A stretch of DNA of 26,496 nucleotides, taken from the IMG/VR virus record IMGVR_UViG_3300006071_000080, positions 1 through 26,496 of that record. One strand, 5' to 3'. Below are positions 24,350 through 25,159 of this stretch, one piece after another. Numbering within the stretch: the first letter of the stretch is position 1; the number at the start of each line of letters is the position of its first letter. The stretch is from a virus. Position numbers and translations under genes: made by a program. The notes under the pieces are model-generated. The model did not search any database. It worked only from the letters and a program-made list of their open reading frames with translations, and was not told the DNA's origin.

Positions 24350-24433
24350 AATTTAAGGTGGGGGTACTCGCTGCGTCTGGCTGACCGCCGTTCCGCAATC
24401 CCCTGTACCAACATCCGCTTTCCCCCCTAAAAG

Positions 24434-24868
24434 TTAAAAACCTATACTTAATTCTTTGTGACGTTTTTTGTGGCAAGGCTGGCAAAGCCACATAACTTCA
24501 AGAGGTTTATCGTAATCTTCGTGATGTGCAACTGTTTTTGTTTCTCCACATCTGCAACAAGATTGTCGAAATAAACCGCCAAATCTTATGGCTTTAGCCA
24601 CCATGTTGTGTGCATAAGCTCTTCTACGATCTTCTGCTCTCCATGCGCGTGTAATTTCCGTAGTTGCTTTGATGCGATCAGATTCTTTTGCGCGCGCCCT
24701 ATCATAAGCCCGTATTTTTTCAATATTTTTATTTCTATGAGATGTAACATCATTTTTGTTGCACTCCTTACATTTGTTAACGTGGCCGTCACGCATTTGG
24801 GGATGTTTGTAAAAATCTTCCAAAGGCTTGACGGTATTGCACTTAAAACATTTTTTAGAACGAATCAT
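24434..24868 (-). CDS. HNH endonuclease with N-terminal zinc finger
   Basis: A 144-aa protein from ATG 24868, with AGGAG at 24878-24874. Residues 7-36 hold two CxxC pairs (CFKC, CKEC), a zinc-ribbon-like fold; 45-95 are strongly basic and helical; and 104-137 form an HNH core: CCRCG (104-108), AHHEDYDKPLEVMW (114-127), CQPCHKKRH (129-137). Phage HNH proteins are nicking or cutting endonucleases, either homing genes or packaging helpers; being among early genes and far from the terminase argues for a free-standing homing gene. DNA is A+T-rich compared with neighbours. Its expression signals are unusual (see the upstream regulatory entry). Extension to 24898 is possible but would start inside the hairpin. 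Confidence 0.85.
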   Translation of the reverse strand: MIRSKKCFKCNTVKPLEDFYKHPQMRDGHVNKCKECNKNDVTSHRNKNIEKIRAYDRARAKESDRIKATTEITRAWRAEDRRRAYAHNMVAKAIRFGGLFRQSCCRCGETKTVAHHEDYDKPLEVMWLCQPCHKKRHKELSIGF

Positions 24869-24872
24869 GTTG

Positions 24873-24902
24873 ACTCCTGTGACTATAGGAGTAACCATTA
24901 TA
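24873..24902 (-). promoter_or_regulatory. Candidate promoter and ribosome-site hairpin for the HNH gene
   Basis: On the minus strand a perfect -10 hexamer, TATAAT, lies at 24902-24897, predicting a start near 24890. No good -35 is seen at the usual distance. Just downstream ACTCCT (24892-24887) can pair with AGGAGT (24878-24873) around an 8-base loop, placing the AGGAG ribosome site in the 3' arm. Long transcripts from upstream would have the ribosome site masked, whereas a transcript starting at the local promoter loses part of the 5' arm. Confidence 0.5.
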
Positions 24903-24910
24903 GACCCGTT

Positions 24911-25159
24911 CTAATTAAAAGGTATATCTTGATCGTCAGCAGCAGGTCTGCGGCCTTTTGGGGCCTCATCCTCGCGTGGCGCGTTCATAAATGCCCAACC
25001 GTCCCAACCGCCTTCTTTTAAAGGGATAACGTCCAGTTTAAGCATTTCGCCGTTCTTGGTGGACAGAACTGAGCCGATACGTTGGTAGCGGTTCTTGGTC
25101 TGACCTTCTTTGTTAGTGTACGTCCCGACAATGCAGGAAATTTCTTTAGTAATTGCCAT
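24911..25159 (-). CDS. Small protein with SSB-like acidic tail, recombination partner candidate
   Basis: An 82-aa protein from ATG 25159 (MAITKEISCIVGTYTNKEGQ onward), overlapping the nuclease gene by 14 bases. Residues 5-60 are predicted strands (NRYQRIGSVLST, MLKLDVIPL, WDGWAFMNA) of OB-like size. The end, DDQDIPFN (75-82), is very close to the DDDIPF tail with which bacterial SSB proteins recruit host repair enzymes, though with one residue after the Phe. Together with ERF and a PD-(D/E)XK nuclease just upstream, this points to single-strand binding or recombination mediation. I do not recognise a named family for the core. A longer start at 25216 has no support. Confidence 0.75.
   Translation of the reverse strand: MAITKEISCIVGTYTNKEGQTKNRYQRIGSVLSTKNGEMLKLDVIPLKEGGWDGWAFMNAPREDEAPKGRRPAADDQDIPFN

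Follow-up and report, generated by a model that had tools for sequence, protein, structure and literature searches.

The window, a stretch of 26,496 nucleotides (positions 1 to 26,496 of the IMG/VR virus record IMGVR_UViG_3300006071_000080), belongs to a freshwater phage whose P22-like genes include those for a major head protein, an Hc3 head-closure protein and an Erf-type annealing protein. An operon on its minus strand runs in the order erf, exonuclease, ssb-like gene and HNH gene, and the gene order is identical in a Manatee Spring phage, where a 'single strand binding protein' precedes the HNH gene. The features around the junction of the last two genes are as follows:

24911-25159, minus strand: SSB-like gene, C-terminus ..DDQDIPFN, its start taken at MAITKEIS
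24441-24916, minus strand: inserted cassette, made of the last ssb base(s) or new stop, the leader with its hairpin and putative promoter, and the HNH ORF (from the empty-site comparison)
24903-24914, minus strand: outer stem, 5′ arm UUAGAACGGGUC, containing the ssb stop codon (fold and covariation)
24897-24902, minus strand: -10-like box TATAAT, the most conserved block of the leader, inside the bulge TATAATG (sequence)
24889-24891, minus strand: predicted transcription start, 6-8 nt past the -10 (from the box position and the opening energies of the truncated RNA)
24887-24895, minus strand: inner stem, 5′ arm GUUACUCCU (fold and covariation)
24869-24878, minus strand: inner stem, 3′ arm AGGAGU-C-AAC with the C bulged, containing the Shine-Dalgarno (fold and covariation)
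24874-24878, minus strand: Shine-Dalgarno AGGAG (sequence)
24855-24866, minus strand: outer stem, 3′ arm GAUUCGUUCUAA, spanning the final base of the start codon and HNH codons 2-5 (fold and covariation)
24434-24868, minus strand: HNH endonuclease gene, 144 aa, PHROG 2340 'endonuclease'

The HNH protein matches the PHROG 2340 endonuclease family at 1.9e-34. It has a zinc-ribbon-like N-terminus and a C-terminus reading HHEDYD..CHKKRH; C7, C10, C33, C36, C104, C107, H115, H116, C129, H133 and H137 are invariant among 26 diverse relatives, and the conserved HNH and zinc residues expected of an HNH (beta-beta-alpha metal) nuclease are present. Its structure is predicted with confidence (pLDDT 93.7), the chain finishing with two strands and a helix; a Foldseek comparison of the model with the PDB gave no significant match, the best being Hpy99I with an E of 0.13. 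A Pfam match to AvrPphF was under its cut-off and was taken as noise.

Two relatives, L154 and L155, have no HNH gene and an ssb protein 98.75% identical to that of the window. The DNA match between them and the window stops at 24917 and resumes at 24440, which makes them a precise empty site, the cassette ends being uncertain by about 4 nt because TTTT is present at both joints. Leader and HNH gene were accordingly inserted as a unit. Among 80 loci of ssb relatives retrieved with the window ssb protein, only two have an HNH gene, whereas it is the next gene in all 69 exact leader matches. Of 129 upstream genes, nearly all terminate in [IVL]PF(N), usually preceded by acidic residues, and they belong to various families: SSB (PF00436), PHROG SSB-like, SpoVG-like and Cys-rich proteins. 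With the tail removed, similarity among these families was not detectable at E 1e-3, and remote homology, for example through OB folds, is conceivable. HNH proteins that are 90% identical were found behind different upstream families. The HNH tree has 41 switches of upstream family, where the minimum is 7 and shuffling gives a mean of 64.5, so that the spread of the HNH gene has been independent of the ancestry of the resident gene. Of 131 HNH genes, 50 themselves have Phe as the last residue before the stop, as if the ssb end had been re-used. At the level of sequence, a mobile, homing-like spread of the cassette is thus supported.

Some observations concern the surroundings of the cassette. 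In L056, L060, L067, L073, L075 and L081 the same cassette lies behind small Cys-rich proteins that are not recognisably SSB and whose SSB-like tail reads W..[SE][IL]PF. In class C leaders (L033, L056 and others) a second hairpin, CCCGTTTT/AAAACGGG, is located just 5′ of the -10 box; it derives from the ssb IPF codons and has no T run after it. Downstream of the HNH gene, at 24357-24432 on the minus strand, the window carries an intergenic-looking element, GGGGAAAGCGGATGCTG-N(20-50)-GCAGCGAGTACCCC, also found in L151, L154, L159 and from L406 onward; its ends hardly vary, and the variable part between them often forms a hairpin closed by CTGx/xCAG. It has at least 120 exact matches in IMG/VR, in varied contexts; no Rfam family matched at the copies scanned, and it looks like an undescribed structured RNA or a small mobile element. 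The insert-free relatives L152 (440-508, minus strand) and L154 (622-688, minus strand) give matches to int-alpA RNA (RF02996) that score just below the gathering threshold.

RNA folding turns the HNH leader (minus strand, ATG at 24868) into a two-part hairpin, in which the outer stem UUAGAACGGGUC/GAUUCGUUCUAA of 12 bp is separated from the inner one by an asymmetric bulge, TATAATG on the 5′ side versus AU on the 3′ side. The first-pass annotation had reported a TATAAT at minus-strand 24902-24897 and a hairpin formed by ACTCCT (24892-24887) and AGGAGT (24878-24873). Both are there, AGGAGT being the Shine-Dalgarno, 5 nt before the ATG at 24868; the hairpin, however, had been drawn too short, for it corresponds to the inner part and the outer stem had been missed. 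An in-frame ATG at 24898 was considered as the HNH start and rejected: the distance from box to ATG is 28-31 nt in close relatives and the frame is not kept, which leaves 24868 as the start. No Rfam family matched at the leader. Taken alone, the fold of the window sequence is only moderately unusual (z of -2.2; 6 of 200 shuffles), and evidence was therefore sought in comparison with relatives.

About 120 unique leaders were gathered from 80 IMG/VR relatives, 69 loci with an exact pattern (partly overlapping), a second search, MAG contigs and cultured phages; the leader is present in about 110 unique relatives, and class A comprises 75 unique leaders chosen by their 5′ side only. The 15-base pattern AAAACGGGTATAATG was too short for a scan of the collection, HNH loci being few among its 72 matches, and an alignment-based scan returned mostly the same close relatives.

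Compensatory changes in related leaders, which the first-pass annotation had proposed to look for, proved abundant: on a tree of the HNH gene from which the stem codons were left out, about 74 double events are reconstructed for the class A leaders, 25 in the outer stem and 49 in the inner one. In class A, outer pair 6 is C-G in 66 leaders and U-A in 9, with no intermediates, and outer pair 9 is G-C or A-U, with one G-U; inner pair 3 is mostly U-A or C-G, and inner pair 4 may be G-C, A-U, U-A or C-G. Of 1332 core cells, 1286 are paired; 500 simulations that treat the columns as independent gave 1143 on average and 1209 at most. Cells with a double change number 83 versus a simulated maximum of 60. 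A separate count on the 33 class A leaders without gaps gave 95.9% of cells paired (98.2% in the outer stem), a figure that drops to 35-44% when the partners are slid. Changes in the HNH codons (IRS, IHS, ISS, HSS) are mirrored in the leader, as in L305 with AGAACUGUGC/GCACAGUUCU. Among the core cells that are not Watson-Crick, 206 are G-U and 8 are A-C; since the two mismatches are equivalent in a DNA dyad, this imbalance means that pairing acts in the RNA of the coding strand. The comparison shows a conserved RNA pairing over the HNH initiation region.

More distant relatives (about 34-52% identity) have hairpins of unrelated sequence that are laid out alike, TAnnnT being followed by the 5′ arm, the loop, the 3′ arm (which in most cases holds the Shine-Dalgarno) and the start codon. 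This set consists of Vibrio 1220 g2, E. coli ECOO78, Pararheinheimera KLER1-1, Pseudomonas PPpW-3, Vibrio 1.278.O and Xanthomonas Kintu. Homologues keeping the gene and not the hairpin had been named beforehand as a point against the initial reading; such cases do occur, but among distant relatives only (roughly below 55% identity), whereas close relatives keep the hairpin. The HNH genes without leader are those of L306, L307, L312-L315, L317, L401 and L405. In L312, L313, L314, L315, L401 and L405 the HNH start overlaps the 3′ end of ssb, hairpin and -10 being absent, and in several of them the ssb ORF continues past the DDIPF tip into the nuclease gene; this overlap is a second expression strategy within the same HNH family. 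In L306, a Saprospiraceae MAG, the HNH gene begins a few nucleotides past the ssb stop. The Shine-Dalgarno is little used in this host group, and the lack of a leader fits this, there being nothing to mask.

The -10-like box is the other conserved part of the leader. On a tree of 113 leaders, its six positions underwent 1, 0, 3, 8, 3 and 1 changes, as opposed to 7-44 for the ten positions downstream, with the reservation that the box regex used in this count partly selects TAnnnT. For this reason the box was rechecked with an anchor that ignores it: TAnnnT lies within 10 nt in 107 of 110 leaders, 23% being expected after shuffling, and two of the three misses are errors of the anchor. The window has TATAATGG and its relatives have variants such as TATACT, TATGAT, TACAAT, TAAAAT and TAAGAT, so that TAnnnT is almost invariant and constitutes the best conserved block of the leader. 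Recognition of a -10 by sigma-70-type factors calls for T at position 1, A at 2 and T at 6, which is the pattern of conservation seen here. The earlier caveat that there is no clear -35 was right: neither a -35 nor a TGn extended -10 exists at the window site, and the window family has no -35. A consensus scan for promoters and terminators did not list the site, its counts being at the level of shuffled sequence. By inspection, a relative from an E. coli phage (L316) has TTGTAA 17 nt upstream of TACACT. In L378 the start hairpin is kept (AATCGTC/GGCGATT) and the -10 box is lost (TAATCG), which makes it a natural promoter-minus case. Conservation of the -10 box is evident from comparison of the leaders, and a promoter inside the HNH leader hairpin is probable.

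What starting inside the hairpin would do was estimated as the predicted cost of opening the region from -15 to +13, the truncated RNA being taken to start 7 nt past the box; the per-base unpaired probability of Shine-Dalgarno and AUG served poorly and was abandoned, since a Shine-Dalgarno enclosed in a loop scores as unpaired. Median costs are 16.3 kcal/mol for the read-through RNA, 6.1 for the truncated RNA and 6.8 for 302 control genes, which are other genes from the same loci. Truncation lowers the cost by 5 kcal/mol or more in 100 of 111 leaders and, among controls truncated at -22, in 5%. Folding of both transcripts, another check suggested at the outset, accordingly gave a predicted masked read-through RNA and a predicted open truncated one. 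It had been objected that a start at 24890 still leaves four base pairs; this is so, yet the predicted cost in the window falls from 16.3 to 6.6 kcal/mol, within the range of control genes.

We consider it quite likely that these elements make up a portable, self-insulated expression cassette for HNH at the end of phage ssb genes, in which the hairpin mutes read-through and an internal promoter frees the gene. A free-standing HNH endonuclease cassette would have been inserted at the end of ssb; in the ssb read-through RNA, the region of the ssb stop would pair with HNH codons 1-5 while a second stem holds the Shine-Dalgarno, and HNH would hardly be translated from this RNA, however strong ssb transcription may be. 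A -10-type promoter within the hairpin would start a short RNA at about 24890, devoid of the outer 5′ arm and of most of the inner 5′ arm, and the ribosome site would consequently be open, so that the promoter of the cassette itself would set the level of HNH and possibly its time. The activity of the promoter, the translational silencing of HNH and homing cleavage at the ssb end are what we infer from these patterns. The putative promoter may be either late, as in T4, or weak, constitutive and of host type. A plain weak promoter would already be at work early, and for this reason we prefer insulation from ssb read-through to late timing as the common function; the two are not mutually exclusive.

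The best placed alternative, to which we grant a small chance, is translational coupling: ribosomes terminating ssb would melt the hairpin, HNH would be made in proportion to ssb, and TATAAT would be a by-product. The ssb stop of class A does lie within the outer 5′ arm, much of which a terminating ribosome would cover; however, the inner stem with the Shine-Dalgarno begins about 16-18 nt past the stop, and class C leaders have their entire hairpin about 20 nt beyond the ssb stop, outside a normal footprint. Nor would coupling account for the bulged TATAATG varying less than any other block. It seems a little less probable still that the hairpin is a riboregulator opened by some factor (a phage protein, an sRNA, an RNase or HNH itself) with no promoter inside. 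The missing -35 would agree with it, control of this sort exists for some T4 genes (PMC3014915), and HNH could bind a left homing half-site overlapping the leader, as I-TevI does its operator (PMC2988022). But both stems drift freely in sequence while pairing persists, and the distant relatives, whose hairpins are unrelated in sequence, still have TAnnnT at their 5′ arm. The inverted repeats of which the leader is made might also serve as double-stranded DNA, as an operator or recombination site; this is strongly disfavoured by the excess of G-U over A-C, and we regard it as very improbable. Least credible of all is a chance hairpin beside a chance TATAAT, which the modest z score of the single sequence would allow and which the covariation refutes, all comparative results being against it.

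Returning to the insulated cassette, we also lean, with less assurance, towards the view that it homes to the DNA encoding the SSB tip (acidic-[IVL]PF-stop), replaces the final codons and the stop as it inserts, and can thereby move between genes that have nothing but this tip in common, carrying its hairpin and -10 with it. Because it would bring its own insulated expression unit, it could work behind any ssb-like gene, whatever the transcription level of the latter. The link with the SSB tail offers a testable account of how one endonuclease moves between unrelated genes, and cultured relatives (Escherichia phages ECOO78 and Alux-21, Vibrio phage 1220 g2, Xanthomonas phage Kintu) bring the system within reach of the bench.

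No paper describing this leader or an HNH cassette targeting the ssb tail was found in the open-access library searched. According to reviews, the same logic operates in I-TevI, I-TevII, I-TevIII, segB, Aeh1 mobE and T4 gene e (PMC2988022, PMC3014915). In the three T4 I-Tev genes the early or middle read-through RNA hides the ribosome site and the transcript from the promoter is without the 5′ arm (PMC2988022), as predicted here. They differ in being intron-encoded and in depending on late or middle promoters for which T4 factors are required, whereas the present gene is free-standing, its phage is not T4-like and its outer stem uses codons of the endonuclease. The T4 late consensus TATAAATA is not matched by the box, be it TATAAT in the window or TATACT, TATGAT, TACAAT or TAAAAT in relatives, and without a late-promoter sequence the leader does not belong to the T4 group. 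Closer in kind are T4 segB and mobE of the Aeromonas phage Aeh1, free-standing homing endonucleases with a hairpin-masked ribosome-binding site and the promoter arrangement, mobE being likewise described as HNH (PMC2988022, PMC3014915); however, they reside in T4-like phages, at nrdA and tRNA-region sites, and not behind genes with an ssb tail in many phage types. For T4 gene e (lysozyme), the read-through RNA folds over the initiation region, late promoters sit just upstream of the ribosome site and late transcripts are without the 5′ strand (PMC3014915), but this is a host-lysis gene with a T4 late promoter and is not mobile. T4 segG, beside gene 32, resembles our case in being a homing endonuclease that targets the gene for a single-stranded-DNA-binding protein; it differs in being a GIY-YIG enzyme of another protein family and promoterless, and the review reports no such leader for it (PMC2988022). 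That T4 homing-endonuclease logic, a masked ribosome site with a -10-like element in the hairpin, also operates outside T4, as the first-pass annotation had proposed, is strongly supported by covariation, wobble pairs, -10 conservation and the predicted effect of truncation, and it is well supported that the leader works like those of I-TevI, segB and mobE, here with HNH genes of an unrelated family and in phages that are not T4-like. Hiding of the ribosome site in this style is described in the reviews for a handful of T-even-like cases (PMC2988022, PMC3014915); here it appears in an unrelated nuclease family, in numerous uncultured phages and some cultured ones, and the covariation is strong enough for the structure to be defined. 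This suggests that mobile nuclease genes generally need to be insulated from read-through of the host gene.
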